A model generated the notes under the pieces. That model was not told where the DNA came from. It made no database searches and worked only from the letters and a program-made list of their open reading frames with translations. A stretch of 38,044 nt of DNA. Origin: Geosiphon pyriformis (lineage: Eukaryota; Glomeromycota; Glomeromycetes; Archaeosporales; Geosiphonaceae). Within the stretch, counting starts at the first letter, position 1. Each line of letters starts with the position of its first letter. Positions 1-38,044 of this stretch are shown in pieces. The position numbers and the translations under genes were made by a program. The stretch is from assembly GCA_016748015.1 (NCBI GenBank), contig JAAOMT010000566.1, positions 358,912 through 396,955 of the forward strand, read 5' to 3'.

Positions 1-3000
1 ACTATATTATATTGATATTTTAAAAAAAAAATTACTTAAAAAAGACATTTTTTAAACAATTTTAAATAATATAGCACTATTACTAATCAATTTAATTAGT
101 TATTTAACAATTTTTAAAACATCAATCTTAATACTAACAGATTTACATTTTTAAAGTAACAATAAATTAAAAAATATATTATTATTAACAGCAAACAAAT
201 TTATATAGAGACCAATTATATTAATATTCTCAAAGCCATATTTAGTTTTCAATACAACTATTTTTATTTTAACTTACTAATAGCTTTATTAAAAAAACCT
301 ATATATATTAGAACTTTATTGATTTTAAAACTAAAAATACTGTTTAAAATAAAGTTTTTTTTTAATAAATTGTTTAAACATAATAACTAAAAAAACAACA
401 AATTTAATAATAGATTTAATTAATATAGTCAATTTAGTTAAATTAGCTTTTAAAAAAATTAATTATAAAGAAATCAAAAAATTATCAATAATTACAGAAG
501 AAAAAACAAGAATTATTAGAAATAATAATTTAGGAGAGCTTAAAAAAACAAAAGTTTTGGCATGAAATTTAGCATCTATAAAACATGATATAAATATTTT
601 AGAAATCTTGAAAAGAAAAAATAAGAATACTTTATAGTTTATAATTAAATAACCTATTTTTTAATATTTAAAACAACACTAATAATTAGAGATTTCTTAT
701 TAAATATAATACTTTCTTAATATACTAACCTTAATTATTATAACATTTAAATTAACTTGAGATCTAAATATAATTAAAACAAACTGAGAACAATGATTAA
801 AATTAAAAGAGCAAAGAATAAAACATATCTAATTATTAATCTGAAAAATTATATTATTAATCTTAAAAATAATACAACCAAAAAAAAGATTAATTAACTT
901 AGTTTTAAACTTATTATAAAACAAAATAGTCTTATTTTAATTTATTAAAAAAAAATCCTAATACTATTTTTACTCATCAGTACTGACTAATTATTTAAAA
1001 TAGACACAACAGTATCTAGTTTTTTAAAATGAACAATATTATATTGTTAAATATTAACAGACTTTAATACAAATAATTTTACTAAACTTATTAAGTGCTA
1101 TTTTAATATTAAAACAGATATACTTAAAAACACATTATATAGTACAACAGTAAGAGAAAAAAACCGGTCTTAAAACCTACCAAAAACTTGCTAATTTTAA
1201 GAGTAGTTAAACAAATAAAGCTTATAAGCTTAATCAGAAAAACAGCTTTTAAAAATTTTTAAGAAAAAAACTTCATACAGAAAAGTTTTATATTGTCTTT
1301 TAATCCTAATTTTACATTCAAAAAACCATATACAAATTGGAAAACAGTTTTAATATAAGCCAATTTAATTTTAAAAGTTGTATTAAACACCAAATAAAAG
1401 CCACTTACTTAGTAAATCTTTGATAATCAATAATAATTTTTTAAGTATCATTAATAACAGTATTAAAAACCAGAAAAAATAATAATAAATCAGTTTTTAT
1501 TTAATTAGTCCAGTTTTTAAGAACAAATAATCCAAAAAAACTGTTGTTTTGCTTTTAAAACCAGTAAAAATTTGTCAGAAAATATTATATTTAACAATAT
1601 AACCAGTAGTTAATTTTGGTTTATCTTAAATAATATCTTAAATAATATAATAGAAATTTCATATAAGATTACATTTAGAATCACAAAAAAGTTTGGTGTA
1701 ATAATAACAGAAGTAAATAACTGTTTTTACTTTTTAAAATCCTTGGCTTTTTTGTCATTTTTAAAAAATAGTACTAATAGCACCAAATATAACAGCAATA
1801 ATTAAAAAAATTAGTTTGTTAATTAATTTACTATTAAAAAATTTTAGACTTTTAATAAAAGTAAAAGCAATTTTAAAATTAATCTAAGTATATCTTTTTA
1901 AAAGAATCTTGACTAATAAAAAACCAGCTAAAAATAAGAAAGATGTTTCAATAGCCACCAAAAGCAGTCTTTTATTACTATTATTTAAGAAAAAAGCTTT
2001 TAAAACATTCTGCTTAACTATTTTTACAATAGAAAAAACTTCTTTGGTTAAAATTTTATTAGATATTTTAAAAAAAATATTAGATACAACTTTTTTATTT
2101 TTTGTTTTGATTGTAATCATAAAATTAAGAAAACAAAAAGTTTTTATAAATTTTTATAATTTATTAAACATAAATATATATAACTAAATAGTAATTAATA
2201 TTATAAGTTTTTTTATTAATTAAAACAAGATAATTTTATGAATTATATATTATTGTATTTATTTATTTTTTTATTATCAAGTTTAATAAGTACAGCCCAG
2301 TTGCTATCTAGTATACAGAATCAAGCAATATGATCTTAACTACATACAACTTACGTACTTGCTACATATAACTAGCTATTCAAGCCAGTCAAGACAATAC
2401 TATATACTTATATAAACTACAGAGTTTCTATCAACACTAGAGAAAAAAACACAAAGCAAATACTGATCAAAACTTACCCTCAAAGATTCAGAAATACCAA
2501 GCATATAGACGACCCTCAAAAACAAATCTGCTTTGGCCAGGTCTGACAAGAAAGAAACCATATTATTATTAACTACCAAACCAGCTTTCTTCAATTCTGT
2601 TCTATGTTTTACTCTGATATATTATATAGATTGGCAGTGAGACTCAACCAAACAGTGAAAAAAATTCACCAAAACTAAAATAGCTTGAATCTTATCATCA
2701 AACAAATACAAAGCTTTCTCAGTCCAATTCTTGAAAACAAACTCTTTATAGAAAACCATATATAACCTTACATCTAACAGACAATATTTATTAATAAAAT
2801 ATAAAACAAAGTTTTTTAGTATTTTATAATATTTTATTAATATTAATTTTAACTATTTATATAGTATTTTTACCAATTAAAATTACTTATTTAATTACAA
2901 GTTATTTAATCTAATTTTAATTAATAAATTCTATTAATACTTTTTATTATAGTTTATTAATTATATTTTAATTAACTTAATATTTTTAAATTTAAATAAT

Positions 3001-4080
3001 ATAATTAAATCTGTTGTTTTTATTAAATCAAACTTAAATATAATTATTATTATATAAATAATCTTATTAAATTTTGAAAAAATAAAAACTTTTCTAAAAC
3101 TATTTATACTTAAAAATAGTTTTTTAATTTTTTTAATTTTTCTTAAAACAAATTATTATTAATTATAAAAAGATTAATATTTAATACAAATAACTTTCTA
3201 ATAAAAATATTAATTTTGATTTTTTTAAAAAAAAGTATCTTAATTATTACCAATAATATTAAAATTAATAATTATTATATGTGTTTTAATTTTAAAAGTT
3301 ATAAAAACAATATTTATATAATTTATATTTATATTATTAATGTTATTAGTATTAAAACTAATTTTTTTTATTAAATAATTTTTATTTATGTTAAAACTTT
3401 TTGTTTCTAATGTATTATTAATATTAATATTACCTAAATTATTTTTTAAAACAATCATTAAATAAGAAAAAAAGCCAATTTTATTGTCATTAAACTCCAA
3501 AAAAAAAGATTTTTATCTTTTTTTAAAAAAAATATTATTAAAAAAATTAAAATTTAAGCTTTTTATATTTTTATATATATTATTATTAAAATTATTAACA
3601 GTTTTATAATTGAACATAAAACGTATAAAAATATTAAATAAAATATAAAAAATTAAAGTAAAAAAACAAACTTTTTAAAAATTTAAAATATACAAAAAAA
3701 AGAAGTTTTTTTATTTTTTATTATAAATATAATTAAAAATAAGAAAAAAAAAGTTTATATTATTTTAGTTAAAAATATAATTAAAAATACTTGTTTAAAA
3801 AAAATAAAATTTTAAATAATATATATATTTAAATATAATAAAAAATAATTATAAATTTAAATTTATTTTTAATATGTAATCAGCTATTTATATTAAATTT
3901 AATATAATTAATATTTATGTTATTGTTATTATTAAAATATGGTATAAAATTTTAAAATTTTAAAATTACAAATAATATACAATATTTAATAATTATTAAA
4001 AAAAATTTGTATAATAAACATTTTACTTGCAATGAATAAAAAGTTTTTTTTAAAAATCATAATTTTTGTATTATTAAATT
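1..4080. mobile_element. AT-rich block of decayed transposon sequence
   Basis: No intact gene is visible. The + strand is strongly A-rich up to about 1,900, as expected if an old element was coded on this strand. One stretch (431-637, + frame) stays open for 69 codons apart from a single TGA at 563-565 that could be a mutated TGG, and it ends at TAG. Its product is Lys/Ile/Asn-rich and I do not recognise it. The piece from about 2,300 to 2,780 is less AT-rich and is listed separately. From 2,800 to 4,080 there is only very AT-rich sequence with A/T runs. The overlapping frames at 1,884-2,187 and the frame at 3,240-3,500 are low-complexity and look like chance. The transposon reading is inference from composition and from the repeat shared with the gypsy block. 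Confidence 0.5.
2306..2405. repeat. Diverged direct repeat, copy 1 (LTR-like, less mutated)
   Basis: About 100 bp here align in the same orientation with 8,039-8,138. In the best 44 bp (2,362-2,405 against 8,095-8,138) there are 8 differences and all are transitions. Seven of the eight positions have C or G in one copy and T or A in the other in the direction expected of deamination, most often with this copy keeping C or G. The flank to about 2,780 is also richer in GC than the rest of the block, so this may be part of a younger LTR or solo LTR. I could not define LTR ends or a target-site duplication. Confidence 0.5.
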
Positions 4081-4469: not shown

Positions 4470-7279
4470 ATGGTATGCAATATTTTATGAAGTCGAGGTG
4501 TTTTGTCTTCAAAGCTTTAAGATCATTATTTTGAGATCCGGTTTTGTTTTAGGTGAACTACGTTCTATTCGAAACTGCTTCAGGTTATGCCTTGTTCGAA
4601 ATTCTTCAGGTGGAAGAAATTGGAGCCAAGCTGGAATCGGTACAAGAGGCTGTAAAAGATTTGACTAAGTTTGGCAAAGGTGTCAAATTGAAATCTTTTG
4701 CACCTTTTAAAAATGCCGCTCATGCTCTCGAAAACGCGAACGACATTTCCGAAGGTATAGATAACTACCTTACACGATACTGATCAGATTTTTAAATCTC
4801 TATTTCTCACTCTTTTTGACCGCGATTGCAATTTGGTATTTTCCAGGCGTCATTAATGATTATCTGAGAGAGTTTCTTGAGCTGAACCTTCCGGCTCCCG
4901 CGAAATCCAAAAAGAAGAATCCTGTGATATTGGGTATTATTGACAAAAACCTAGCTAGTTCCATTGTTTCCCAACTTAAATATGAATGTGAAACCAGTGA
5001 ATTGGTCTTAGAGATCATCCGGGGAATCCGGTTACATGCCGATAAGCTTTTAGGACAGATGAAGGAGGGGGACTTGGAAAGAGCTCAGCTTGGTTTGGGG
5101 CATAGTTTTTCAAGGGCTAAGGTTAAATTCAACATCAATCGTTCTGATAATATGATCATACAAGCTATTTCCTTATTAGATCAATTAGACAAGGATGTTA
5201 ATACATTTGCTATGCGCGTCAGGTATTATTATCAACATCTTGACAAAATTTTGTGTCCGAATCTTCATTAAATCAACCCATTATGACTCTAACAAATTAA
5301 CTAATTCATAGGGAGTGGTATTCTTGGCACTTTCCAGAATTGGTGAAAATTGTTAACGATAATCATCAATACGCAAAGCTTGCAAAGTTCATTAAGAATA
5401 AGGCTGATCTTACTGAGGACAATCTTCAGGGCTTAGAAGACATCACAGAGGATGAAACAAAGGCGCAGCAAATATTGGAAGCAGCGCGTTCGTCCATGGG
5501 GACAGATATTTCTGACGTTGATATGCTTAACATTGAACATTTTGCTAATTGCGTTATAAATCTTGCTAATTATCGCAAGAGTTTGCTTGATTACTTACGC
5601 TCTAAAATGAGTGTTGTGGCCCCAAATTTATCTGCGCTTATTGGTGAAGTGATCGGTGCCAGGTTGATTTCACACGCGGGAAGCTTGACTAATTTATCAA
5701 AATACCCCGCCTCTACTGTTCAGATCCTTGGTGCTGAGAAAGCATTGTTCAGGTTGGTCATAACTACGAGTCTTGTATAGTTCTTAAAACGCACAATTAT
5801 AGGCTAAAACATTATTTGTTACTGAGTCATATGCATGATCTATGATTGACAGTTTACGACGAATTTGTGGCTCGAGGGATTGTTTATGTTGAACAGAAAA
5901 TCATGATTCGTCAAACTAGATAATTGCTTATGATCTAGTACAATTGCTATTTTATGCCTTGAAATTATATGTTGTTCATGATATATTTTCTCAAAACCTT
6001 AGAGCCCTAAAAACCAAAGGGAATACACCTAAATATGGATTATTATACCATTCTACTTACATTGGCCGCGCCGGAGCAAAAAATAAGGGCAGGATATCAC
6101 GGTTTCTCGCAAATAAATGTACAATTGCTTCACGTATTGACTGTTTTACAGGTGAGAAAAGGTTTCATTTTTGTATATAAATTTATATTAACACGATTCA
6201 TTTAAAGAAATATTATAATTTTCCGAGAAATTTGATTGTTTTATCATTTCCCTGATTGGTTTCTTTAATGGCACAGATTTCTCTAAATCTTTCATATGCT
6301 TATTATAGAAAAGCCGACTTCAAAATTTGGGGAAGCTCTTAAAGAGCAAGTAGAACGCCGGTTGATGTTTTTTGAAACTGGTGCCAAACCTCTCAAAAAT
6401 ATCGACGCCATGAAGAAGGTTCTAGATTCCATCGCCTCTGAAGATAAAATGGAATTAGACTCCAAACCCGTTCTACCACATATCGATCAAGATGATGAAA
6501 GCGATGAAAGCGATGAGAGTGAAGATAATGAGGATATTCAGGAAAAGGAGCCTCAAAAAGGTTTGATCATAACTAAAAAGAAAGTTTTCTGACTTTTATA
6601 AAGGCTCACCTACGATCAATTTAATTTAATTAAAAATTTGCCTGATCTGTATATATTTGGAATGGACTCAAAGCACCCTCTTCAAAAGCTTCCGAATCAT
6701 CATCAAAGAAGCGTAAAGCAACAACAAAAAAAATCGATGGAGAACCTGGTCCTAACAAAGCGCCAAAGATATTAGAATCAGAGGATATTAGCTCTAAGAA
6801 GATCACCAAATCCAAAGATTCAAGTGATAGCTCAACAGAATCTTCCGAAAGTGAAGCCTTATCAAATGTGGTAAAAACCACCAAAAAGATTCTTGATTTT
6901 CCTAAGGATAATAAAGTAAAAACCCCGAAGAAAAAAAGCACTTCAGCCCATTCAGCCAAGCAGGAAACCCCTAAAGTAATTTCCAAGAGCAAGAAAAATA
7001 AAAAGAATGGGGATGGTTTGAAAAATGAAAAATCGCAATTTGGCGAAGTCGCAGTCAAAAAGGTTAGGGGATCATAAGAATTATTCGAAGGTACCGAGAA
7101 AAACTCGCTAACTTTGATCATTTCATTAACAGATAAAAAGTGAGGAAAAACAAAAAACTATCGATGATAATGGAACCACTGAACAAACTAAGGCTTCCAA
7201 GAAAAACGCTACCAAGACTGTCGACAAAAAATTGAAAAAAGCAAAAAAATCCAAAGGCAAAGACAAAGATGATGCATAG
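4470..7279 (+). CDS. NOP56: Nucleolar protein 56 (box C/D snoRNP core), eight exons
   Basis: Core protein of box C/D snoRNPs, which pairs with Nop58, fibrillarin and Snu13 to guide rRNA 2'-O-methylation in the nucleolus. Proposed exons: 4470-4472 (ATG only), 4553-4754, 4847-5222, 5312-5752, 6003-6151, 6309-6560, 6674-7062, 7133-7279. All introns are GT...AG, phases agree, and the 1,959 nt give 652 residues. Residues about 3-67 are NOP5NT ([13 protein letters not shown], ending [15 protein letters not shown]). The NOSIC region follows at about 165-217 ([28 protein letters not shown]). The Nop snoRNA-binding domain is at about 255-405 ([40 protein letters not shown]). Residues about 430-652 are a Lys/Ser/Asp/Glu-rich tail typical of eukaryotic Nop56, longer here than in yeast. 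Least certain are the one-codon first exon and the intron 6,561-6,673 (GTTTGA donor). No breaks are seen in the conserved core, so the gene looks functional. Confidence 0.93.
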
Positions 7280-7394
7280 TAGGAAAACCGAAAGAGCAAT
7301 TGAGATACCGGCTGGTATTTTCGTACAATTATTTTCATGATACAAGAATTTTTCGCGTTTTTTAAATGGAGCGACAGGTGGCTAAACCTCACCA

Positions 7395-7400
7395 AATAAA
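7395..7400 (+). terminator. Candidate poly(A) signal of NOP56
   Basis: An AATAAA hexamer lies 116 nt after the NOP56 stop, at the edge where the island passes into AT-rich DNA. In such AT-rich sequence the hexamer could occur by chance. Confidence 0.35.
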
Positions 7401-8038
7401 CAACTTATCGAACCAAATGGTGTTTCATTATTTGTAATTGCAATTCAAAACTTAAATAATTTTATGATTTAGAAAATCTAATTATAAGAACATATTTAGT
7501 TGTGCCAATTACTTTAAATTATGAAATTAGGTTTTGAATAACGAACAAAATAAATTACAAAAATTATTGTTTAATACATTATAACTTGTTATTAAATATT
7601 AAATACATGTATTGTTTAAAAATATATTACCAATAATATTTTTGCTTAAATAAATAAATTAACACAAAAAAAATCAATTTTTTTAATAATTTATTATTAT
7701 TTTTTAACAGTTGCATAAATAGCTTTTAAAATTTAAAATTTATTTTATAAACAGTTTTAATAGTAATAATAATAATAATAATTTATTATATAAAAATATT
7801 TTATATATAATTATAAGTAAAACAAAAGTAAAAAAATTGATTATTTAAAAAACTTTTTTAGTAGTAAAAACAAATAAACAAATATTATAAATGTATTTTT
7901 TTAAATATTACAAATATAAAACAATTAATATTGTTTTTTTTAATTAAAGTTTTATTTAATTAATACACCAAAAGCAGTTTTAATAATAATAATATTATTA
8001 TTTTTTATTTATTTATTTAATAAACAAAACTCAAATAC

Positions 8039-8138
8039 TATTTAGTATAATACATCAAACTAAGTAATTTAAACTAAGTATAACTCATGTACCTTCTATA
8101 TATAACCAGTTATTTGAGCCAATTAAGACAATATTATA
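8039..8138. repeat. Diverged direct repeat, copy 2 (LTR-like, more mutated)
   Basis: This is the partner of 2,306-2,405 in direct orientation. This copy usually has T or A where the other has C or G. It lies on the low-coordinate side of the gypsy element, where the 3' LTR of a minus-strand element would be. A 73-codon frame (8,087-8,308) runs through it and has no recognisable product. Confidence 0.5.
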
Positions 8139-8570
8139 TTAAAACTATAAAAAAAAATCTATTCCAAGAAAACATCTTATTTTTAATAACAATTAACATA
8201 CTACTATTCTTAACAAAACTACTTGATTATATTTACATTAGATTTAATAAAATTAGATTGATGTTTTCAAAGAATAATCAACTTAGTATAAAGTTTATTA
8301 TCAAATGAATTAATATTATATTGTTATTAAAGATTTTTTACTTTTTTCTTAATGTTGTTAATACTGTTTTGCTGTTAATTCTGCTGTTAATAAAAGTTGG
8401 TAAACTTTTGATAAATTAATTTTTTTTTCAAAGTATCTTTTTATATTTTAAACTGTATATGTTATTGAATTTATAATAAAATAGCCAATTTTGTGTCAAT
8501 TATTTGTATATTTACTTTGCAGTAAAAGTTAATTCTTTTACAAAAAATCTTGATTGTAAACTACTTAATA

Positions 8571-8645
8571 ATATAAAAAAAAAAAGAAAAAAAAAGAAAT
8601 AAACAAAAAAAAAAGAAATAAATTAAAGAAAAAAAAATAAAAAAT
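8571..8645. repeat. Low-complexity A-rich (A)n-GAAAT tract
   Basis: A runs are broken by G, GAAAT and TAAA on the + strand. This could be a polypurine or slippage tract and shows no other structure. Confidence 0.7.
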
Positions 8646-8938
8646 GTGTTAAAAAAGCTATTTTAGATTCAAGCCTAAAAGTTATTAATAATTACTAAAA
8701 TTGATAACCAATTAATTTCAAAATATTAATATAAAAAAGTTAATTTTAAAATAACAATAATTAAAAAATTTATGTTTTTTAATATAAGTTTTATTTGAAT
8801 TAATATATATAAAAAATATATCTCAAATTATAATAAAAATTAATTCTAACTAAGATACATTTTTTCAAAAAAAGAAGTTCTTTTTTTATACAACTTATTA
8901 TAATATTATTTTATAATTTAGTACTTTTTTTTTCTAAT

Positions 8939-9058
8939 ATTTTGACAAATTAAAGATATATTTTATCGAACTACAAGTTATTTATACAAACTATAAATTA
9001 TTTTAATAAACTGTTGAATATTTTATTGAATTATTAAATATTTTAACAAATTCTGAAT
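8939..9058. repeat. Degenerate 20-bp tandem repeat, about six units
   Basis: Units of the form ATTTTAwCrAAyTAyrAAT start at about 8,939, 8,960, 8,980, 9,000, 9,020 and 9,040, the last being 19 bp. Two weaker, shorter units follow to about 9,092. Spacing holds although the units differ at several positions. The array lies downstream of the integrase region in the gypsy block, where a 3' untranslated region or LTR would be. Confidence 0.65.
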
Positions 9059-10799
9059 ATTATATAATTCAACATATTATATAGTTTGATCATTATAATT
9101 TGGTTATATTTGTGTTTTATACAAATAAAATAAAAATTTAAATAATTTGATAAGATAATAAGTAATAAATTAAAACAATAATATATGCTAGTTAATTATA
9201 GGAATTATAGAAATAATTTATGCTCAAATTTTGGCTAATAATATAATCTTTTTTTTAAAACTAAGCTACATTAAAATTCAAGTATTATCTGTAATTTCCA
9301 GATAATAGTCCAAAATTATTGAAGAAATTTGGTCTAAAAATTGTTAAAATTTCAGTTCTGTAAGTTTTTTAATATATTAAATCTTTAAAAGTTGTAAAAT
9401 TGAATTTTATTGAATATTTTTACAAGTATAAATAAGTTATAAAGTCTAAAAACTGTTTTAAGTTTGTAATAAATATTTATTAGTTTAACTGTTGTCTTAA
9501 ATTAATTGTGTAGTTGTTTTTGAATAGTTTTAAGTATGAGGTTTACTGTTTTAAGTTTCAGGTTTTTTTTATAAAGTGTTTTTTTAATCTAAAAATATTT
9601 ATAAATTGAAGAGTATTTGTTGTTTTGTTTGTTGAGATACTGTTAAAGTTTTTGTTAAATTGTAGTATTTGCTAAAATGTTAATAAAAGTAAAGATTTAA
9701 TTCTTTTTTAAAGCTTATTTTAAAAGTTTTGGTAAATAAATTTTAAAATAACTTCTTGTATTTCTTTTATAAAAATAGTAATTTTATGAATTTGTAATTA
9801 AAGTTATAACAAATTCTGTTTGAATATAATTAATATGTTTTTTGGTAATATTTATGAATAATTTAAGTAGTATTTTTAAGGTTAACAAAAATTTTTAAGA
9901 TAATTGTTGAATATTTTGAAGAATAATCATAATAACTAACTAAAAAATAAAAAATAATAGATTATTTTTGATATGTAAATTTTTATATTATTTTTGGTTT
10001 TGTTTTTTTGTGTATTTTTTAATTATTTTTGTAAACTTGATTTTATTAATATAAAGATAAAATAAAATAATTTTAATGTTAAAATTTAGAAATTGTTTAA
10101 TAACAACTATTAATTCTAAGTTTTAAAGAATATTTTCAGAGTTAACCAAAAAAAATTGTGTACTAATTTGTGAAATAAAAAGTTTGGAATTGGTTTTAAA
10201 ATAGTAATACTTAAGTTTATTACTATATGCAACTTTTTTTAAAATTTTATTATCAAGTTTTAACTTATATGATCTATTTCTTAGAATTTTGTGTATATAA
10301 AATAGTTTGTTTTATTTATAATTGAATTTTTTACTTTATTATTTTTTAACTTTAGTTCTATAGAAAAAAAAATTATTTTTAATTTTAAATTTATTGGTAA
10401 CTAGTAGTAGTTTGTTATTATGTTATTCTTTTTGTTAAGCTTAGAAATATTTTATATAAATGGCTATAATTATTATTTTTCTTCTAATTTACTAAAAAAT
10501 ATATAAACTTTTTTTGTAGTCTTTCTTAAAAATTGTTTTTTGTAATTGGCTAAATTAAATAGAGTTCTACTGTAAAATTAATTAGTAATGTTATTATTCT
10601 GTTATAAAATCAAATTATAGTGTGTATTTTATTGTATTTTGTTTTAGTATTTTATATACTAATAACATTAATAGAATAAAAAAATCTTATTCTTGCTTAA
10701 AATTTATAAAAACTTTGGCTAAAAATTTACAAAGTATTTTGTTAAAACATTCTATAAATTCATTTGTTTGTAAATAATAGAGCAAAAATAAAAATCTTT

Positions 10800-11170
10800 T
10801 AACATTGAATTGTTTACAAAATATGTTTTTTGATTGAATAAAAGTTTAATTGGGCATTCATATTTATAAATAATGTTTTTATAGATAAAATTTGTGACTG
10901 ATTTTACATCTGCTTATTAAATTGCTCTTGCTTTAAACTATTTTGTTAAATAATCTACTGTAATTACAATATATTGGTTTCTTTGAGTTGTAATAAGTAG
11001 TGGTCCGATTAAATTGATATTAATTCAATCAAAAAATTGTTTAATTTTGATTGGATTTAAGAGTTTTATGAAATGTGTTTCTCTTCTTTTTTGACAACTA
11101 GCATATAATTCAACATATTATAAATATCTCTTTTTATTTAAGGCCAAAAATAGTGTTCTAATGTTCTTTG
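10800..11170 (-). pseudogene. Gypsy integrase remnant, catalytic Asp codons lost
   Basis: On the minus strand one frame reads a Cys-x2-Cys zinc-binding end (CASCQKRRETHF), then FFD*ININLIGPLL, then YIVITVDYLTK*FKARAI and FNQKTYFVNNSMLK. These match the integrase core patterns D-W-I-x-I-D-L-I-G-P, V-D-Y-L-T-K-W and S-D-x-G-x-x-F. The Trp after the first Asp is TGA and the later Trp is TAG. The expected first catalytic Asp (DLIGP) and second (SDxGT) are both Asn. All of these are single G-to-A changes from the expected codon. This copy cannot be active. The family assignment is firm, and the ends are approximate. Confidence 0.85.
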
Positions 11171-11619
11171 AATTGTATTATTTTTTTTAAAGTATGTTGT
11201 TAAAAGATTTGAATACATGTTATATATGAATATTTTTTTTATTTTTCTGAATTACTTTAAGTAGATTGTCTAAATTTTTGTAATTTTAGTATAAATAAGA
11301 TTATTGTATAAAAAATATTGTTTTGCTTAGTATTATAATCGATGTTTTTTACTAAAAGACCAAGTTTTTGATGTTGTAAGTGTTTTCAAATATTTTTTAA
11401 GATTATTATAGTTTTCAAAATCCATTAGTGATTGTTTTTTGTTGTTTAATTGAGTTGAATAGTGTTTATAGTTTCTAATCTTGCCTTATTTTAAAGAAAT
11501 AATCAATGTTTATATGTAATTTTTCTTGTTTGTAGTATATAATATATTTGTAATTTGCAAAGAATCTATTCTAACAGATTTGTTTGATATTTAATTTAGA
11601 ACTCTTGTTTTGTAGTTAT

Positions 11620-11937
11620 TTATAATCCAATATTATCAGTGATAATATCGAATTTTTTGAACTTAAAATACAGGTTAAAGTAATATAAAACCCAAATTAT
11701 TGTTGCTGTTTCTAATTCAATAGCAAAGTAATTTTTCTTTGTTGGCTTTAGTGTTCTACTGACATAAGTAATTACTTGTTTATTGTCATTGTTATTTAGC
11801 TGAGATAAAATGACATCAAAAGTTATGTATAAAACATCTGTAGCTAATTGAAATCTTTTGTTAAAATCAAGATAAGTAAGAATTAAAGCTGTTGTTGGCT
11901 TTTTTTTAAGAATGTTAAAGGCTTTCTGCTGTTTCAA
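11620..11937 (-). pseudogene. Gypsy RNase H fragment
   Basis: This is the one part of the element still open for about 100 codons. It shows the RT-RNase H junction of Ty3/gypsy: a hydrophobic PTTALILTYLDFNKRF segment, then ATDVLYITFDVILSQ, ITYVSRTLKPTKKNYFAIE, a Trp-rich stretch and a final ITDNIGL. In the family the first motif is T-D-A-S-x-x-x-x-G-A-V-L-S-Q. Here Ala is Val, Ser is Leu and Gly is Asp, each explained by a C-to-T or G-to-A change. It is a passenger in a dead element, not an independent gene. Confidence 0.88.
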
Positions 11938-12089
11938 AGTCCATTTGTATTTAACGTTTTTATTGGTCAGATAATTAAGAAATTTGGCAATTTTAGAAAT
12001 TTTTTGATAAATTTTCGATAGTAGAATGTTAATTTTGTAAATTCTCTTAATTCAGTAGTGTTTTAAAAGATTTTTAAGTTTTTAACCAC

Positions 12090-12590
12090 ACTAATTTTTT
12101 TTGAATCAAGTTTAATTCTTTTTCTATTAAAAATATGACCAAAAAAAGCCAAGCTTGTTTTTCCAAAATAGAATTTTTTAATGTTTAATTTTAATTCTGC
12201 TTTTTGTAATTATTGGAAAACTTTTTTCAGATGAATTAAATAAGCTTTGAATAATAATAAATAAACATTAATATTATTAGGATAGATTACTATTAATTTC
12301 CAAAAAAGTCTAGCATAAACAACATCCATGAATTGTTAAAATGTTGTTGGTGCATTGCATAATTTGAAAAACATTACATTGAATTCATAATTTTTTTTTG
12401 AGTAATAAAAGTTATCTTGAGGTAATTTTTGGGATTTATGATAACTTGTTAATATTCACTTTCTAAATCTAATATTAAGAAGTATTTTAATTTTCCAAAA
12501 GTATCTAGCATGTTATAAATTTGTGATAAAAAGTAAGCATTTTCGATTGTAATACTATTTAATTAGTAATAATTAACACAAAAATGGATT
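12090..12590 (-). pseudogene. Gypsy reverse transcriptase remnant (YLDD became YPNN)
   Basis: The minus strand reads FCVNYY*LNSITIENAYFL, then YFLILDLESEY*QVIINP, FKLCNAPTTF*QFMD and LIVIYPNNINVYL. It continues with LKKVFQ*LQKAELKLNIKKF and a GHIFNRKRIKLD end. The family equivalents are FCVDYRxLN, LDLxSGYWQ, FGLCNAPATFQ and LVYLDDI. The first catalytic Asp (LDL) survives. The YLDD pair at 12,273-12,284 is Asn-Asn through two GAT-to-AAT changes. Gln is TAA, Trp is TAA, and Gly codons are Lys or Glu, all C-to-T or G-to-A. A small frame shift separates the first and second parts. Confidence 0.88.
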
Positions 12591-15500
12591 TTTTTATTTT
12601 TTTTTTTATAAAAATTATTAATAAGATTTATAAATTTATTAATAATTAAAAGAGTCTATTGTTAAGTATCTGTTGTACTTTTTTTTGAATAAATTGATGG
12701 CTTTTTGGTAAGACTTAGTCTTGTTGTTATTTGAATTTTGTATTTATAGTATAAATTTGGTGTTGAACTAGATCAGTTTTTTCCAAATTATTGTTGCTTT
12801 TTGCAAATATGTTTGTATGTTCTGCAATTAATTTTTTGAATTGTTTTTGCTGTTATGATTTTAATTGTCCTATATTAATTCGAGATAACTTCTTAACAAC
12901 AATATGATAGTTTTTGGTAATAGAAGTTGAATTAAATTTCGAAAAAGAATATCCAATTATTTTTGTAAAATTTAAAACTTTCTGTGATAACTCTTGCTGA
13001 ATAATAATATTATAAATAATTTCAATTTCTAAATAGTTATCTAATATAATAAGGTAGTTGTTGAAATTAAAAATATAACATTGAATTTCTTGATTTCTTT
13101 AGACAAATAGATATTTGAAATTGAAATTCCGTATTCTTTGCAAATTTGTTCATTGGATTCAAAAATTTGTTAAGTGGTAATAAATATTAGACAGATATAT
13201 GCTTTACAAATTTCTTTAAAAAATAGAATGGTAATTGTTTTTGGTAATCTAAGAATCTGATAAAATTTATTTTGTATGTTGAAAGCTATATTTATTGGAA
13301 CTGTAAATTGTTCAGTTGATCAAAAATTTCGAGTTTTTTTTTTGCCAAGTTTTTCTTAATTCCTAACTAATTGCAAATCCGAAATTTTAATTAAAGGCAA
13401 ATAGATAGCTTAAACAATTTTTTTAGCATGTTTAATTTTGAATGGCTTTTTGGTTTCATTTTAAAGCATTACTGTAATGTTTTCAATATATTCTGCATCT
13501 ATAATTTTTTTTTAATATTGATTTTTTGCTTGCTAATAATGATTAAGAAGCAATTTGTACTATTATTTCTGATAAAATTTTCAAAGCAATTTTTAGATTG
13601 ATTTTTGTGAGTAATTTTGGTTTTAAAGTAAAATTTTTTTTTCCTGGATATTGAAGATTATATTTTACATTAATTTCGTGGGCTTTTTCTGGCTTGATTT
13701 TTTGTCTATTGTTAAAATATTTCAATTGTAAATTAGGCTGATTTTTGGTAAGATAGATAAAAGTGATTAAAATTTCTGTTTGTGCTTTTTGTGGTCCAAA
13801 TTCAATTTCATCTTGGTTGTTTTCAATGAATAATAGTATATTAATTACATAATATTCAAAACACTATTGGTTATTACAAAAAATAATATATTTTTTGCAA
13901 AGCTAAATGTTTATTTGTTCTAATTATTGAATTTGGATTTTTTTTGAAGAGTAGACATAACTGAAGATAAAATGGTAAATTTCAATTTTGTTTTCATAGT
14001 TAAATTTAGCTAATTTTATAATGTATTTAATATATTATGCTTTTTTTATTTAAAAAACATTTTTTTTAGTTCTTTTATTAATTAGAACTATTGTAAATTT
14101 ATAGATTATTTCAGTATTATATAGATAATAATATAGTTTATTAAAAACACTGTTATATACTGCTGTAAAAAAATGTTCTTTTTTTTACTTTTTCAGAAAT
14201 AAAAAGAGCATATTAACAGATTTGTTTCTCTTTTTATTATAATATTAATCCAATTATATTCTTTAAGTAATAATTTTTTACATATAAAACAAAGTATATT
14301 GTCTTATTTTTTATTTTATTTAGAGCTGCTAAATTGTTCTTTAAAACAAATTTTATATTTTTCTTTAAGTAAAATACAAGCTTCTATGGATAAAAATCTT
14401 TTGTTATAATCTTTGTATTTAAGTAAAATGTATATTAGTTGTTTTTTTGGTTGTAGTTTCAAATAGAGAACATACTAATTATCAGTTTGTTTATTTATTA
14501 TTGTTGATTAAAATTTTTAATTATAATATTAATTGTGATTTAAGTTAATTAAATAATTTTTGTTCTGTTTTTTCAGTCTAATTAAACCAAAAGTTGAGTG
14601 TTATATACGTTTTAATAATCTGTTTTTTTCTTCTTTTAATTCAAAAACTGGAACTTTTTTAAATTGTTTATTGAAAGTATTATAAGTAATAAGTACTTTG
14701 GTATATTGTTTTTAATATAAAATCTTTAATTCTTAGATTTTCAATATAAATTTGCATTAGTCTAAAGAAGTTAATTATTTTTAACAAGAACTTAATATTA
14801 AAATATATTTATTATAAAAACTTTGATTGGAATAATAATTTCATTAATTATGAAAAAAATTTATTAATTTTTTTTATAGAAATCTTTTTTATATTATTGA
14901 CAGTATTAATTGCTTTTTGTTTTAAAGCTGTTGTATTGCTGAATAAGAAAAATGATTTATTGGCTTCGAATTTAAATAGAAAAATGTTCGAGATATTGGC
15001 ATTGTTAGCTATTTTTGCTGATAGAATTATAGTGTTGTTGGAAAAAAAATTTTGTCATTATACTATAATTCTATTTTTTAAAAATACAGTATGATAAAAA
15101 TCCTGGTCTTTAAATATTATAAAATAGCTGGATTGTATATAAAAGTGTTTAAATAACTGTTAATTATTATTGTAAAGTACCAATTAATTATTAAAATCAA
15201 ATCTGTTATTGCTAATAAGAAAGCAATTATGTAATATAAATTAGTTAAGTTGAACCAATTTTTTTGCTAATAGTTAATAATTTTAAGTTAAAAGTAATTA
15301 AGAATACTATTGTTATGATAAGACAAATTAATAATAACTAAGTTAAGATTTTGGTAAATAGTAAGTAGATAGTAATAAATTATATAATTATTGTTGTAAT
15401 AAAGAATAATATTGACTATTCTGTCTTTGCTAATTTCTTTGCATTTTTTGTAATCATATTTTTAATGTTTGAAAATTTTATAATAATAACAATTTAATTG

Positions 15501-15667
15501 TTAAAATTGGTTATTATTGAATAATAATAAGTTTTTTTGGTTTTATTATTAAAATAATTAGTATTTTTATTGTTAATTAGCAAAGTATGTTTTAACTTTT
15601 TTGGTAAGTTGATTAATTTTTTCTTTTGTTGTTAAACTGGTTTTTTTAATTACAAAATTAACATGGT

Positions 15668-15898
15668 TGGTTTGCTTTTTCTATAGTTATTTCATAGTTC
15701 TTAGCATGTTAAATAATAGTGGCTAAATCTGTTGAAGCATATAATTAAACTTTTTTTAATAAGTTTGTCTTTGAATCTAATATAAATTAATCTAATATTT
15801 AAATATCAGAGTAGTAAACATTTGTTTTTAATTGTTGAATTCTTCTAAAAAATTTGTTAAACTTCTTAATATAAGTTATAACAGATTTAAATAGTTTT
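15668..15898 (-). pseudogene. Gypsy Gag (capsid) remnant
   Basis: One minus-strand frame of about 75 codons reads SVITYIKKFNKFFRRIQQLK, then a Gln/Asp-rich middle and LYASTDLATII*HAKNYEI. This has the character of the retrotransposon Gag domain (YIxxF...L...LYxxxDLxxAIxxA). Every stop in the frame is TAA where Gln is expected, so each is explained by CAA-to-TAA. More Gag-like sequence continues upstream to about 16,050 (ENLANFFVNWQTF). A CCHC zinc knuckle should follow near 15,400-15,500, but I could not read one with confidence. Confidence 0.7.
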
Positions 15899-18199
15899 TG
15901 TTTGATATTTTGGAAATAATTTTGAAGAGTAATTAAAATATTGTTTTTAATAAACTGTTAAAAAAAACAGTGTTAAAAGTTTGCCAATTAACAAAAAAGT
16001 TGGCTAAGTTTTCAAACTATTTGTCTGTAGTTCTTTTGAAGAAATAAAAAATTGTTTGTAATATTTTTATTGTATTCTATCTATTTGTATCTTCTGTTTT
16101 GATAATTTAATCAAGCCATTCTTAAAAATTAGTCTCAAAAAAACCGGAAATTTTTGCAATATAAGCAATAATCATTTTTATTATTATTTGTGGTCTTTTT
16201 TTTTCTTTATTTTTTTTTTTAATATATTCAGAAATATTTTTTTTATTGGCTAATATTTCTGAATGTTTATTCTAGTTTTTTGCTAAATAATCAAAAAAAT
16301 TAATGTTAATATGAATTAGTTTTGGCTAGTCAATAGAACTTTTGGTAAAGTTTTCTGGTTTTAAAAATTGATTAAAAAGTCAATTAAGTAGTTATACTTA
16401 AGCAAATAAAGCTAGAAAAAATGTGATTAAAAATGACAATTTAGTACTTGTTTTTTATTCAGGTGTTTACAAGTATTTGAATATTGTTTTTGGTATGTTA
16501 GAAGTTATGTAAACTGGTCTGTTGTTTTTCTGTTTGCTTTTGTTGCTGATTTTAAATTCAGACTCAAGTTTAAGAATAAATTGTAAATTAGCAAAGTATT
16601 TTTCTTTACAAAACTTAAAAATATTGTAGTTAAGTTCTTTAAAATAAGTAATATAAGCATCTGCACTAATATTTTCTGAATTTCTATTTGAATAATAAAA
16701 AAAGTTTTAATTGTAATAGTATTATTTAATATAATTATTTTTAAGAAATTATTTTCAATTGTAAAAACAAAACATATTGTGTTTTAATATATTTTATTTA
16801 ATTACATTATAATATAAAGTTAAATTAATAATATAAAATATAATTTTTATATTTTAATAATATCTAAAAAATTATTAACTAAAAAAAATTTGTATCTTAT
16901 AATTAAACATGTTTTATTTTTTAATTATTTAATTTTAACTGTTATTAAAAACAGAATATTGTTTTTTTAAAATTAATATTTTTTTAATATTATGTTATTA
17001 AAACTGGTATTTTTTAAATATTGGGATTGTTATAAATATTAAAATTTAATTTAATTGGCTTTAAATTGTAAAACTGTTTTTTTAGTTTAAATAAAACACT
17101 TTTAAGTTAGCTGTTATGTTTAAAGTTACAAATTAATTTGTAAATTTAATTTGTTGTACTTAGATTATTATTCAGTTTGTTGTGTTTTATTTTGTAGTAT
17201 TTAACATTAAATTTGAAATTTGAATTAAATTTTTGTAATTACGAATATAAATCTTTATTTGATTAAATTAATAATACAATCTATTAGTATTTTAATAGCA
17301 CAAATTTTAAATCTAATATATATATAAAATTTAATAAAAAATATCACACTTTAAATAAGTGAGTTTTTTGAAATAATATAATTTAAATTACTTAGAAATA
17401 AAATAGATACAAAAAAATTATTTTTAAATACTTAACTCACTGTAGTTTTAATATAAATTTGATTTTAAACAATTGTAATATATATTATAAATTAATCAAT
17501 TAATAATTAATTGGTAATTTCTATTGAAGTTTATAAGAAAATAACTTATTTTTTTAATATTATTTTGTATATTTTAATAATTTATACAGTCTATTTTATA
17601 ATTTTAATTTGAATTAATTAAGTATATAACTAGCAAACTTTTAATTTCAAAAATTTATTAAAATAAATAAACCAAAATTAATTATATTAAATTTTTGTTT
17701 TATATCAAATAATTTAAATATAATAATAAATTATTAAATTATATTAAGCATTTTTGTTAATTTAAAGATTTATATTAGTACATTTAAATATTTAAAGATA
17801 TTTTGTTTCAAAAAGTTACTAGTTTTGTTTAATTTATAATTTCAAAAGTATTTAAGAATGTTTGTTTGTTATTATTTATTTATGAATACAAGAATTCAAA
17901 ATATATAAAAAATTTGATAAAATTATTTTATTTGTATATTATAAATTAAATAATAATATCTTAAGTTTTTTTTATTTCCGTTATAAATTTAACAATCATA
18001 TAAAAGATGCTAAAGAATACAACTTTATATATACTTAAAAAGAAGGTTCTTTTCATTAATATAACTTTCATTATTATTATTATTATTTAAATATTTACAG
18101 TTATATGATATTAAAATTAATTAATTATTTTTAAAAACTTATAGCCTAATTTTTTATATTTTAAAATATAAATATAAATGTTTGATTAGCATAAATCAG

Positions 18200-19004
18200 G
18201 TGAATGTTTATAACAAAGCTATTATAAATAAAAAATCCATGACTTTTCTCAATTATCTTTACTGTACAAACTTGAAATTATATTAAATATATGCAACTTG
18301 GACAAAACCAAAGAATTTTATTCCATCACCGTATGATGAGATTGTAAAAAGATGAATTCATCTGATTCAAGTTTTTTTGAGTAAATTGGTAAAACTAGCG
18401 TTAATTAGAAATCATGCATTTAACTTTTGCGCTCATTATCACATTAATTAAAAACTTTATAAACCAAAGATTCCATTATCCGAAGCATTCAACTTCGGAT
18501 TAACGATAGTCACCATATACATCATTTGAATATTCTTTTAGCTTAAATTATCTTACTTATTAAATTTCAAAACTTTTCTTAATTCACCTAAACAAGAACT
18601 CTTTTACTAATTTTATTTTCTCAGTAAGAAAAAAAACATTTAATTGCTCAGGAATGGTTAGATCCTTAAAAAATTTATGTTCGAAAGTATTTTCTTTAAT
18701 TTCAAATCAGCATTTATTCTTATTTTACTGATTTCATTTGGGGGGGAGATTATTTTAGAACGAAAAAGCCTAAACATTTTAGATCTGCTATTCAATACCC
18801 TAAAAGAGTTTTGTGAATCTTCTAGAACAACATATGAGAAAAACAGGTTAATTTAGCAGATATCTCAGGTGATTTATAAATTACCTTGGCCTATTGGCTT
18901 AAATACATGTACTCAAGATCACCACAAATTACTCGTAAATTGTTAATAAAAACAAAAAATTGTGTCCTACTATCTACTTAACACTAAATCTTGACTGCAA
19001 AATA
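18200..19004. other. Intergenic region upstream of the zinc-finger gene
   Basis: Composition changes to moderate GC at about 18,200. I see no coding frame with family-like features and no RNA gene. It contains a short G run (GGGGGGG near 18,740) and probably the promoter of the zinc-finger gene, but no clear TATA box was located. Confidence 0.4.
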
Positions 19005-23379: not shown

Positions 23380-24010
23380 CTTTTTCTGCTGTTTCAAATC
23401 AAATCTTATTTTATAAAAAATCAGGAAATTGGAATTTCTGATGTTTTATCTTTAAAAACAATTGTGCCAACAAAATTTTCGGGCAAAAGAGATTCCAAAG
23501 CTATAAAATTAGGTTAATATATTCATAAAAACTTTATTTTTCTGCAATAAATTGCTATTAAACTAGATACAGAGAGAGTAGAAATTTCATATCGCACAAT
23601 TGGCAGACATTTAAAATCACTTGGATATATGAAAAAACCTAAAAATTACTACGCCCTTGGTCATGCAAGTTCAAAAGTAGAAACGTGTTGCAAATTTCAT
23701 CTTAATTATAGCTAGAAAAAACCTTATCTTCGGATGAACATTGATAAAAGAGAAAATGGGCAATTCGTCCAAGATCCAAAAGATCTTACAATTTTTTTGC
23801 ATGGGACGGTTTTTGTATGAAGGGAAAACCCAATTTATTTTGTTTTTGGCATGTCATGGATGCTAGGTTTTATCTTGAAATTTTCCCTAACATGTTGGAA
23901 AAGTTAATGGAATACTTGGGAAGAAGTGGCGTTCCAACAGGATAACAATTCTGAGCATATAAGTTAAATAGCGAAGGCATTTTTTGAAGTAAAAGAAAAC
24001 AAATGCTGCA
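23380..24010 (+). pseudogene. Tc1/mariner transposase pseudogene
   Basis: Frames on the + strand give EISYRTIGRHLKSLGYMKKP (23,581-23,640), the helix-turn-helix end of a Tc1-type transposase. A TAG at about 23,713 follows. Next come a broken SDE motif (TCGGATGAA at 23,730-23,738, out of frame with the preceding LIF by a small deletion), MKGKPNLFCFWHVMDARFYL with the expected spacing, and FQQDNNSEHIS*IAKAFFEV at about 23,931-23,990. The latter is the D-N motif of the DDE/D triad. Stops and indels occur throughout. Unlike the gypsy block, decay is by indels and mixed substitutions with GC retained, so this copy escaped or predates the AT-driving process. Terminal inverted repeats were not found. 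Confidence 0.82.
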
Positions 24011-24159
24011 AAATATAAATGATTGAAAAATGGGTGCAAATCAATTTAGTAAATTTAATGTTACACCGATCGATTTACAAAGTTATGAACTTTTTTATCC
24101 AAGTAATATGTAAGCAATGATTTGAGCAATGGTCACCGAACCAACAACACGGCGAGTTT

Positions 24160-26450
24160 TTTTTGTTCTTTTACTAACTTAATATTTTTATTATAATAAT
24201 TTTATTTTATTTCTCTTTAATAAAATGTTTTTTTATTTTTTTAGTAAATTATTTTATAAGTGTTAACAAATATTGTAAAAATCAATTTAAAAGTTTATAA
24301 TTTAAATATAAAATTAACTGGTATTACAATTTACAAAAAAATATTATATTTAAGCATCTATAAAGTACTATTTTCTTATATTAGCTAAAAAATCATGATA
24401 AACAGACTTGTAGCTTATTTTTGCTGGCAAAAAATAATTAATAAGTTATAGAATTAACATTATTTGACTAAATTAAATTTGTAAACTTAAATATACTTAA
24501 AATTTTTACTGTAATAATCATATTTATATTAATATTTTTATTAGACATCTTTTTTTATTGCTGTAAACTTAAAAAAAAATTTTCATTAAATGTTTTTAAG
24601 ATAATTGTAACTGTTAATCAATAAGTTAAATAACCAATATTTAATTAAATTAAATAATTATTTGTAATTCTCATTTACATATTTAATGAAAAAAATTTAA
24701 GCATTGTAAACTAATAATTGAACTTATAAAGTAATAATAAAATAGATTAATTAATTGAAAAGTAAAATAATAATTGGTAAACTATTAAAAATAAGATATT
24801 TTAATTATAGTAATACAATAAGTTACATAAAAATAATCAAATATGGTATCCAAATAAGAGCTTTAAATAAATATAAATTTATATAATAAATCTTAATATT
24901 AACCAATTTATTAATTATCACTAAATAATTTTGATTTTTTTATATTATTTAGCTTTTTTTTGTTTTTTTAATTATAAAATAATTCATTAAAATCTGTAAA
25001 TATTTTTATTGCTAATTTTGTTATAACATAGTACAATTAATATGAAACATAAAAATATATTATTATTTTAAACAATAAATAATTTTTTATTGACTTAAGT
25101 TTATTTTAAAAACATTTTTATTAATTAAAATTTAATTTAAAAGTATTATAAAATTTGTAAAAATTCACTGAAATTCCCATTTATTTAAAAATTTATTAGT
25201 GTCTTAATAAAAAAAAGTATTAAAATACATAAAAACAAGTTATCTTTTTAAAAAATATTTTATAACAGAATAATAGTTTTAATATTTAAAAAAAATATAA
25301 TTTATTAAAACAAATTTCTTTTAACCAAACTATTATTAATAAAAAAAAATTCTTGTTAAAAATAAATAATTTTACTATTATTTAATTCTTAACTTTAAAT
25401 ATTAAGTTCAAAATAAGTAACTATTTTTATTAAAACTTTTTTTGTAAAGAAACATATATTTTTAAAAAAATATTTAAGCTAATAGCAGAAATCAAAAATA
25501 AAATTATTATTTATTATAATTTAAACTATTTATAAAAATAATACTTAAATACTAATACTTATAATTAACTTAAAATTTAGAGTTTTAATAATCTAGAAAA
25601 TAATCTTTGAACAAATTATTAATTTTTTTGCTATTTTTAAAGTTACCAAATTTTATGATTAAGAGAAAATACTGTTTATATAAAAAAACAAAAACACATT
25701 ATTAAACATCTCAAAATTTGCAATCTTTAAGAAAAACACAATTAAAAATATAAATTTTTGGAAATTTTCCTTAAAAATAATTAGCAATTCTAATAAAAAT
25801 AATTAAAAACATTATTTATTTTATTTAAAAACCTATAAAACCAATTTCCAAATCAACAATAATAAAAAACTATATAAACGAAAATTTAAAAATCTTTATA
25901 TATTCAAAATTATTCTAAAAAACTGTATATGTTTATTAAGTTTATTTTACTGTTAATCGTAAATATATAAATGTTTTTTATAATTTGATATTTGTTAACT
26001 TTTTTTTTCAAATTTCAATAAAATAAAATAAAATTAAGAAATAAATTATATTATAAATAATATATAAAATAACTATAATCTAACAATTTATTAATTGTTT
26101 AAATTATTATACAATAGCACTTTTTTCATTTTTAACAAACAGTAATTGCTATTTACAACAAAATTATCTGCAAAAATACTGGTTTGTAATCTTTTAACAT
26201 ATAAGCTAAACAAAATTTTTACTTTAAAACAATTATTTATAATAGGATTTGCTAATGTGTCTTGTGAAAATTTTTAATTTAATTACAAGCATACTATAAA
26301 TGTTATGTTTATGTATTTTTAATACTTTTTTTTAAGAACAAAGATGTTCTAATCAAAACATTTTCTTATTTTAATGGTTTTTAATTCCAATAAGCTCAAG
26401 AAAAAATGGTTGTATATATAATAAAAATTTTTCAAACAAGTTACTAATGA
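24160..26450. mobile_element. AT-rich block, no gene seen
   Basis: Composition is as extreme as in the gypsy block, with A/T runs and A-rich + strand in the second half. I recognised no protein domain in any frame. By analogy with the other blocks it is probably decayed transposon sequence, which is inference from composition only. It ends about where the motif described at 26,474 begins. Confidence 0.4.
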
Positions 26451-37261: not shown

Positions 37262-38044
37262 TTAAGCATTGAAACCTCCATTAATTGTACCAGCGGAGTT
37301 TTGACCATTTTGTTGGTTACCAATTGCATTGGAATTATATCCATTTCTACCACTATTGTCGTTGAACCCTCCGTTAATAGTACCCAGGGACCACTGGCCA
37401 TTTTGTTGATTACCAATAGCTCTCTTTACATTGAAACCACCATTAATAGTACCAGCGGAGTTTTGACCATTTTGTTGGTTACCAATTGAATTGGAATTAT
37501 ATCCATATCTACCACTATTGTCGTTGAACCCTCCGTTAATAGACCATTGGACCACTGGCCATTTTGTTGATTACCAATAGCTCTCTTTGCATTGAAACCT
37601 CCATTAATAGTACCAGCGGAGTTTTGACCATTTTGTTGGTTACCAATTGAATTGGAATTATATCCATATCTACCACTATTGTCGTTGAACCCTCCGTTAA
37701 TAAGACCATTGGACCACTGGCCATTTTGTTGATTACCAATAGCTCTCTTTACATTGAAACCTCCATTAATAGTACCCTGGGACCACTGACCATTTTGTTG
37801 GTTACCAATTGAATTGGAATTATATCCATATCTACCACTATTGTCGTTGAACCCTCCGTTAATAAAACCATTGGACCACTGGCCATTTTGTTGATTACCA
37901 ATAGCTCTCTTTACATTGAAACCTCCATTAATAGTACCCTGGGACCACTGACCATTTTGTTGGTTACCAATTGCATTGGAATTATATCCATATCTACCAC
38001 TATTGTCGTTGAACCCTCCGTTAATAAAACCATTGGACCACTGG
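37262..38044 (-). CDS. Gly/Asn/Gln-rich tandem-repeat protein, 3' part, one frameshift
   Basis: The gene enters from beyond the window and ends at TAA (37,262-37,264). It is made of 54-residue units. Each has a 31-residue half (INGGFNDNSGRYGYNSN, then AIGNQQNGQWSQGT) and a 23-residue half (INGGFNVKRAIGNQQNGQWS plus three residues), the two sharing INGGFN and IGNQQNGQ. Nearly five units are visible. The sequence is hydrophilic, low in charge and resembles glycine-rich wall or adhesive proteins; no catalytic motif. In the unit near 37,541-37,546 one T is missing (GGTCTATTAAC against GGTCTTATTAAC), which shifts the frame and would give a stop about 30 codons later. It is either a real break or an assembly or read error in a repeat. 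The start, any signal peptide and the full number of units lie outside the window. Confidence 0.75.
37262..38044. repeat. 162-bp coding minisatellite
   Basis: The marker CCGTTAATA occurs at 37,371, 37,533, 37,694, 37,856 and 38,018: spacings 162, 161, 162, 162. Units are nearly identical, differing at a few sites (for example AACTCCGCTGG against TGGTCCCAGGG), so the array was homogenised recently. The array continues past the window. Confidence 0.95.

Follow-up and report, generated by a model that had tools for sequence, protein, structure and literature searches.

The question raised by this locus is whether a fungus of the Glomeromycota type mutates its transposons by a process resembling repeat-induced point mutation (RIP). 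The window, a stretch of 38,044 nucleotides (G000:C214:358912-396955) in a searched genome of 124.7 Mb and 406 contigs, carries a decayed copy of a Ty3/gypsy long terminal repeat (LTR) retrotransposon, for which a first-pass annotation had proposed RIP-like hypermutation. By comparing this copy with its genomic relatives, we found that the bias towards C-to-T and G-to-A changes (C>T/G>A) is genuine and, as far as our comparisons reach, specific to transposons, and that the process is not RIP of the Neurospora type. Methylation-linked deamination of cytosine in silenced transposons is probably the best explanation.

Alignment to a young genomic copy, L118, places the element on the minus strand at approximately 8320-16950, a narrower span than the 7430-18200 originally assigned to it. 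Blocks of homology with L118 lie at 8320-8912, 8608-9951, 10063-14321 and 14907-16649 (all minus strand), and the right border is a projection from L118. In L118, whose second LTR is truncated where the fetched sequence stops, gag, protease, dUTPase, reverse transcriptase (RT), RNase H and integrase follow one another with an LTR at each end (PF03732, PF13650, PF00692, PF00078, PF17917/PF17919, PF17921 and PF00665), and the order of gag, protease, RT, RNase H and integrase between LTRs is that of a Ty3/gypsy element. In the window copy, RNase H and dUTPase can still be recognised and H2C2 matches below the threshold (Table 1), while the RT of this copy gave no Pfam match of its own. Its right-hand LTR is unrecognisable, as the left LTR of L118 used as query against 16601-18200 scored only 49, and the LTR pair of the window copy itself was set aside for this reason. 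The family is large: a two-letter pattern blind to C>T changes had 1013 matches in the genome with at most one mismatch, and the reversed control had 0.

Genomic copies collected with an internal piece of the element (Table 1) comprised six at GC 0.336-0.362 and 27, the window copy included, at GC 0.112-0.215; columns with too few letters or without a clear shared state were excluded from the counts. Compared with the six GC-richer copies over 1411 columns, the window copy showed 146 C>T/G>A changes, 42 reverse transitions and 73 transversions. Where these six share the same base, C>T reached 0.53 and G>A 0.55 per site across the 27 AT-rich copies, and all other classes remained at or below 0.056. 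Thus, the aligned copies are strongly transition-biased, and the balanced spectrum that would speak against hypermutation was not seen. The earlier statement that nearly every difference is C-to-T or G-to-A caught this bias and overstated it, since against one younger copy such changes made up 801 of 1283 differences in pol, with 349 of 621 for the gag-side part and 252 of 483 for the part at the 3′ end.

The same changes account for most of the stop codons. In the aligned pol piece, the window copy has 17 in-frame stops, and 14 of them are explicable by C>T/G>A alone (9 CAA>TAA, 3 TGG>TAA and 2 CGA>TAA), as are 635 of the 770 stops across all 27 AT-rich copies. On the gag side, 28 of 34 stops fall where a younger copy has CAA, CAG or TGG. 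The GAT-to-AAT change was confirmed too, in that both aspartate codons of the RT active-site box are changed by G>A; most of the 38 young copies described below read TAT CTT GAT GAC/GAT ACT in this box, and some have AAT or AAC.

The share of the 27 old copies that are mutated at each of 367 conserved C/G sites forms one broad peak at ∼0.4-0.8, and 869 of 1041 A/T sites were changed in under a tenth of copies. The single broad peak indicates that most hits arose independently in each copy and were not inherited, and an AT-rich master element as shared ancestor is therefore rejected for the C>T part of the divergence. The AT-rich copies belong to older subfamilies that carry extra transversions. 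Basecalling error is thought unlikely, as the hits differ among copies and indels are few.

The two LTRs of an element are identical at insertion, and hence changes between them are post-insertion. With a GC-rich copy as query, 40 copies of 2003-2011 bases were listed (the best 40 scored of 3207 candidates); 32 further copies were fetched and aligned with the six over 2012 columns, giving 38, and 6 of the 40 places were not fetched. Both ends were fetched for ten young copies, of which eight gave aligned LTR pairs and two had no match. These eight pairs (6129 bp, divergence ∼5-11%) differed by 334 transitions against 19 transversions, a transition:transversion ratio of 17.6, and by 5 gap runs; the 471-bp pair of L118 had 24 transitions, 1 transversion and no gaps.

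For the low-copy background we used the AT-rich flanks of a homologous pair of ∼9 kb, C317:1117526-1126686 and C202:49749-58917 (both G000), which is either a segmental duplicate or a divergent haplotype and contains a 5.8S-like fragment. Over 4683 bp at GC 0.12-0.155, the flanks differed by 76 transitions in one direction and 78 in the other, by 126 transversions and by 39 gap runs; repeating the comparison with the aligner used for the LTRs agreed with this (70 and 70 transitions, 130 transversions, 60 gap runs). The resulting ratio is ∼1.1-1.2, compared with 17.6 in similarly diverged LTR pairs (Fisher p 1.5e-33). In the GC-richer core of the same pair, one copy has 117 C>T/G>A changes versus 13 the other way (CpG 29/110). 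Copy-specific hypermutation of this core was considered and dropped because relaxed selection on one side accounts for much of the asymmetry, and only the flanks were therefore used as control. The second comparison was between a methyltransferase gene, L001, and its truncated duplicate, L005 (1100 aligned bp, 93.2% alike), which differ by 33 and 21 transitions, 21 transversions and 6 gap runs (CpG 4/78). This spectrum is near-balanced, and in this one case the expectation for RIP that any duplication of ∼1 kb is hit in both copies does not hold. Thus, the finding that the first-pass annotation had named as fatal to its proposal, the same bias in single-copy intergenic DNA, had no counterpart in the low-copy DNA examined, neither in the flanks nor in the gene duplicate. 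A second full copy of the window, which could have served as an allelic control, was not found in the genome. The observed/expected ratio (o/e) of CpG was 0.28 in young and 0.16 in old copies, compared with 0.93 in four gene loci and 0.91 in the introns of the neighbouring NOP56-type gene (five introns, limits read by eye to within a few bases).

The sequence context of the changes was counted in those 31 of the 38 young copies that fall into three groups; the other 7, which belong to no group, were excluded. C>T was found at 295 of 959 CpG sites (0.31), 451 of 4927 CpC (0.092), 496 of 7341 CpT (0.068) and 543 of 9101 CpA (0.060), so that CpG is mutated 4.4 times as often as other cytosines. 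At non-CpG sites the share was 0.093 for C after a pyrimidine and 0.042 for C after a purine, a 2.2-fold difference, and for CpG the rates after a purine and after a pyrimidine are about equal. Transversions in the same copies amounted to 118/59768, or 0.0020 per site, and non-CpG C>T exceeds this rate ∼35-fold per site (27-48, bootstrap over copies). Old copies likewise had no preference for CpA and favoured TpC (CpA 0.44-0.51, CpC 0.54-0.56, CpT 0.49-0.62). In the LTR pairs CpG was again highest (0.41), with CpA far below it, and TpC led among the 5′ neighbours. The CpA target suggested at the outset for many of the changes thus found no support in the aligned pol piece, where CpG is hottest, followed by C after a pyrimidine. 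The combination of hottest CpG and CpG-depleted copies is that expected from deamination of 5-methylcytosine.

Across these 31 copies, the 1787 C>T/G>A changes were unclustered. Neighbouring events within 30 bp shared a strand in a fraction of 0.541, compared with 0.519 expected; within 10 bp this was 0.577 versus 0.533, a slight excess (259 pairs versus 240 expected, standard deviation 16). Adjacent CC>TT doubles were not in excess (37 versus ∼41 expected), counts per copy were near-Poisson (variance/mean 0.70-1.49), and C>T and G>A were strand-symmetric. Moreover, in a sample drawn with the C>T-blind pattern (40 of 101 listed places fetched, from the 1013 matches), GC was graded, with 29 copies at 0.335-0.385 and 11 spread over 0.186-0.299. 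The split into two GC classes that the first two samples had suggested as proof of a burst did not appear in this sample and was given up. Relative to the young state, transversions were 0-0.0064 in sampled young copies and 0.067-0.085 in an older subfamily, whose C>T share ranged from 0.30 to 0.52; among young copies of the 2-kb piece, the number of stops in the best frame falls as low as 3. The copies thus record a post-insertion, strand-symmetric and unclustered C>T process with a context of its own, absent from the low-copy DNA examined, which looks like a steady process outrunning ordinary mutation and not like an all-or-none burst.

Ten matches to PF00145 were found in the genome, in L001-L008 and L117. 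No methyltransferase of the RID or Masc1 type was recognised among these ten, in a search that can miss genes; every methyltransferase gene with a readable motif has ENV, from which the motif of RID presumably differs. By sequence, L004 appears DNMT1-like. L002 has BAH and methyltransferase pieces and may be DIM-2-like, as its nearest chains, 9baq/9bap (52.1 bits versus 47.9 for DNMT1), would to judge from chain length be Neurospora DIM-2; L006 resembles L002, with a BAH match below the cut-off. L007 and L117 carry a PPCQPYT motif, which we take to be DNMT2-like. The gene L001 is nearest to 3g7u (61.6 bits, DNMT1 61.4), which we take to be bacterial in origin, and a horizontal origin of L001 is possible; it lies on G000:C318, ∼32 kb from its truncated duplicate L005. 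Hence, of the RID, DIM-2 and Masc1 enzymes that were to be searched for, a DIM-2-like candidate (by a small margin) was obtained beside the putative DNMT1-type enzyme, and RID was not recognised. Phycomyces, according to the accessible part of PMC7862722 (literature statements here and below follow the accessible parts of the papers cited), has a similar set with DNMT1, Dim-2, apparently two DNMT2 and no RID.

The initial proposal of RIP-like hypermutation therefore stands in part. The process shares with Neurospora RIP the dominance of C:G>T:A changes in repeats, stops at CAA, CAG and TGG codons, and AT-rich relics. It differs in that we found no CpA preference in the aligned pol piece, no clustering or other sign of a burst and no RID recognised among the ten methyltransferase matches, in that young multicopy families persist, and in that the one duplicated gene segment compared was not hit. 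Sliding RIP indices, which had been recommended as a check, were uninformative: the composite RIP index was -0.007 across the element and +0.12 across window positions 24001-26000, and was near or above 0 in other AT-rich DNA of the window as well as in the element.

In the mechanism that we consider most probable, the window copy would be one old member of a large family of Ty3/gypsy elements in a fungus resembling Glomeromycota. Copies would be silenced after insertion, and their cytosines would then turn into thymine on both strands and in all contexts, CpG first. Putative cytosine methylation would be maintained at CpG by the DNMT1-type enzyme and at other cytosines by the DIM-2-type enzyme, and the resulting 5-methylcytosine would be deaminated and poorly repaired. 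We infer the silencing and methylation of the copies, the enzymes acting on them and the manner of deamination, spontaneous or helped.

Several observations weigh against deamination of methylated cytosine. A non-CpG C>T rate ∼35 times that of transversions is high for spontaneous deamination unless repair is poor, and we know of no 5′ pyrimidine preference as a mark of spontaneous 5-methylcytosine deamination. In the LTR pairs CpA (0.13) exceeded CpC (0.11) and CpT (0.075), unlike in the pol piece, although these values are unpolarised and have rough denominators. A milder TpC excess occurs in the low-copy flanks too, and these flanks are partly CpG-depleted (o/e 0.46). The background consists of one low-copy pair and one gene duplicate, and the DIM-2-like call for L002 is a 4-bit margin over DNMT1 in one 64-residue piece. 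Finally, in Zymoseptoria tritici Dim2-dependent mutation strikes CpA and not the more methylated CpG (PMC8016269, accessible part), and methylation level and mutation therefore need not match.

The strongest competitor is an active RIP-like mutator, guided by homology or heterochromatin, that would convert C to T in repeats during every sexual or mitotic cycle, in a context peculiar to it (CpG, then C after pyrimidine) and without RID; we consider it unlikely, though well worth keeping in mind. It would account for transitions that greatly exceed the background while transversions and indels stay few, and for the mutation of non-CpG cytosines; the Dim2-dependent mitotic process of Z. tritici (PMC8016269) is a precedent, and the slight same-strand excess within 10 bp would fit. 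Against it are the missing CpA preference in the pol piece, the unclustered, near-Poisson counts, a family that still yields 1013 pattern matches and young copies with few stops, the unaffected ∼1.1-kb duplicated gene segment (one case), and the fact that no RID was recognised. That such a mutator, transposon-directed and free of RID, follows a code of its own (CpG, then C after a pyrimidine, no CpA preference) and works steadily and not in premeiotic bursts is a somewhat more doubtful proposition.

Genome-wide AT drift on DNA freed from selection, under which transposons would seem special because they start GC-richer, is improbable. Intergenic DNA does drift as low as GC 0.08-0.16, and the one-sided change in the C317/C202 core can be read in this way; however, the flanks of that pair are near-balanced and rich in indels at a divergence similar to that of the LTR pairs, and general AT drift is thus an unlikely main cause of the transposon bias. 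Moreover, the NOP56-type introns keep their GC (0.289) and their CpG. Editing or error at reverse transcription, before insertion (cDNA deamination or uracil incorporation), is very improbable: the dUTPase of the element could suggest uracil pressure in cDNA, but C>T and G>A occur at nearly equal rates, LTRs made from one template differ by ∼5-11%, and strand coordination is limited to the slight excess within 10 bp. UV-type damage, with C>T at dipyrimidines, recalls the 2.2-fold 5′ pyrimidine preference and is the least credible of all, given no excess of adjacent same-strand doubles, CpG about equally hot after purine and pyrimidine, and only a milder TpC excess in low-copy DNA.

Among known systems, PMC4352252 attributes CpG-type decay with Masc2-type enzymes and no RID to 5-methylcytosine deamination, and CpA/CpT-type decay with RID to RIP; basidiomycete CpG decay is linked there to Masc2/DNMT1, and Tuber has a RID-type gene. 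The process described here resembles the CpG-type transposon decay of Basidiomycota and Tuber in its hottest CpG, its putative DNMT1-type enzyme and the lack of a recognised RID, and differs in that all non-CpG contexts are mutated, in the 5′ pyrimidine effect and in the phylum. With the Dim2-dependent mitotic mutation of Z. tritici (PMC8016269) it shares transposon-limited C>T and a DIM-2-like candidate enzyme, whereas in that fungus >98% of C>T falls at CpA and CpG is not highly mutated. A k-mer screen of 1,239 genomes, in its accessible text, reports RIP-like repeat-directed signatures only in ascomycetes (PMC12543289), PMC8647823 cites work that detected none in Gigaspora or Mucoromycotina, and some Entomophthorales have a RIP index above 0 (PMC10515909); fungal DNA methylation is reviewed in PMC13297926. 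No paper on alignment-based transposon C>T decay in Glomeromycota was found by title and start of abstract, a search that covers subscription literature poorly and is weak evidence of novelty.

In one Glomeromycota-like genome, then, a CpA-centred RIP index does not pick out a pattern that alignment reveals, and composite RIP indices are uninformative in genomes this AT-rich. The findings tie the DNMT1/DIM-2 repertoire to the methylation and mutation of transposons in a way that can be tested, in plant symbionts that are often regarded as clonal over long periods. Ordinary deamination may be fast enough for the rates seen, or an enzyme other than RID may contribute; a mutator without RID, if true, would be a second, independent way of mutating transposons, in a lineage where RIP is reported absent.

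A Glomeromycota host is likely from sequence features, which agree with the Glomeromycotina-like organism suspected at first. The window is AT-rich (GC 0.24), at least 150 Sel1 matches were obtained (best scored of 2002 candidates), chitin synthase gave 2 matches, and the FAS-I helper domain PF08354 had no match in the genome while the control matched, which does not show absence. An anaerobic gut fungus was considered as host as well, but the CBM_10 search gave no match and neither did its control, so that it carries no weight. Glomeromycota have a mean GC of 27% and lack FAS, according to PMC11134847.

Table 1. Features of the window (positions in the window)
Feature	Position	Strand	Evidence
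NOP56/NOP58-type gene with introns, neighbouring control	4500..7200	+	PF01798, PF08156; introns GC 0.289, CpG o/e 0.91
Decayed Ty3/gypsy LTR retrotransposon copy	8320..16950	-	GC 0.182, CpG o/e 0.25; L118 homology, right border projected
Left-hand (3′) LTR remnant and adjoining sequence	8320..8912	-	Local alignment to L118 left LTR side, score 419
Integrase H2C2 zinc-binding remnant, weak	11111..11227	-	PF17921 E 0.01, 16.4 bits (cut-off 25.5); L118 DNA homology supports
Piece for collecting and aligning genomic copies	11600..13600	-	45 matches, best 40 scored of 1829 candidates
RNase H domain, stops read as X	11602..11943	-	PF17919 E 1.7e-20, PF17917 E 1.7e-16
Reverse transcriptase remnant	12135..12610	-	Limits projected from PF00078 in L118
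RT active-site box, both aspartate codons G>A-changed	12270..12284	-	Window TAT CCT AAT AAT ATT
dUTPase remnant	13323..13526	-	PF00692 E 7.7e-5, 22.9 bits (cut-off 22); L118 equivalent E 7.6e-18

The dUTPase of the family is best seen in L118 (L118:5726-6109, minus strand; PF00692 E 7.6e-18), between gag-protease and RT, where it matches solved dUTPases; one of the top-ranking entries is a POL POLYPROTEIN. A dUTPase between protease and RT, as in PosPlaTy3-5, is likewise known from Ty3/gypsy elements of Postia, Phanerochaete and Tuber (PMC2864245, accessible part); the present family differs in its Glomeromycota-like host and in that no chromodomain was found at E 0.001 in the window element or L118.

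The best visible 5.8S/small-subunit copy in the genome, L009 (G000:C320:1042651-1045804), has CpG>TpG/CpA changes at Rfam-conserved positions and may be a decayed ribosomal DNA copy; neighbouring ribosomal DNA reads N, so that intact copies cannot be judged, and the other two 5.8S matches are weak and both lie inside the C317/C202 pair. Elsewhere in the window, positions 1-4000 and 33500-36000 are AT-rich with CpG o/e of 0.17 and 0.27, compared with 0.70 at 24001-26000, and may be what is left of older transposons that went unrecognised. Next to the NOP56-type gene, immediately left of the element, 7001-8000 has an excess of CpG (o/e 1.44). At the right end, 37266-38044 is a tandem array of a 162-bp unit (∼4.8 copies, 96% matches, GC ∼0.35), perhaps a repeat-bearing protein gene.

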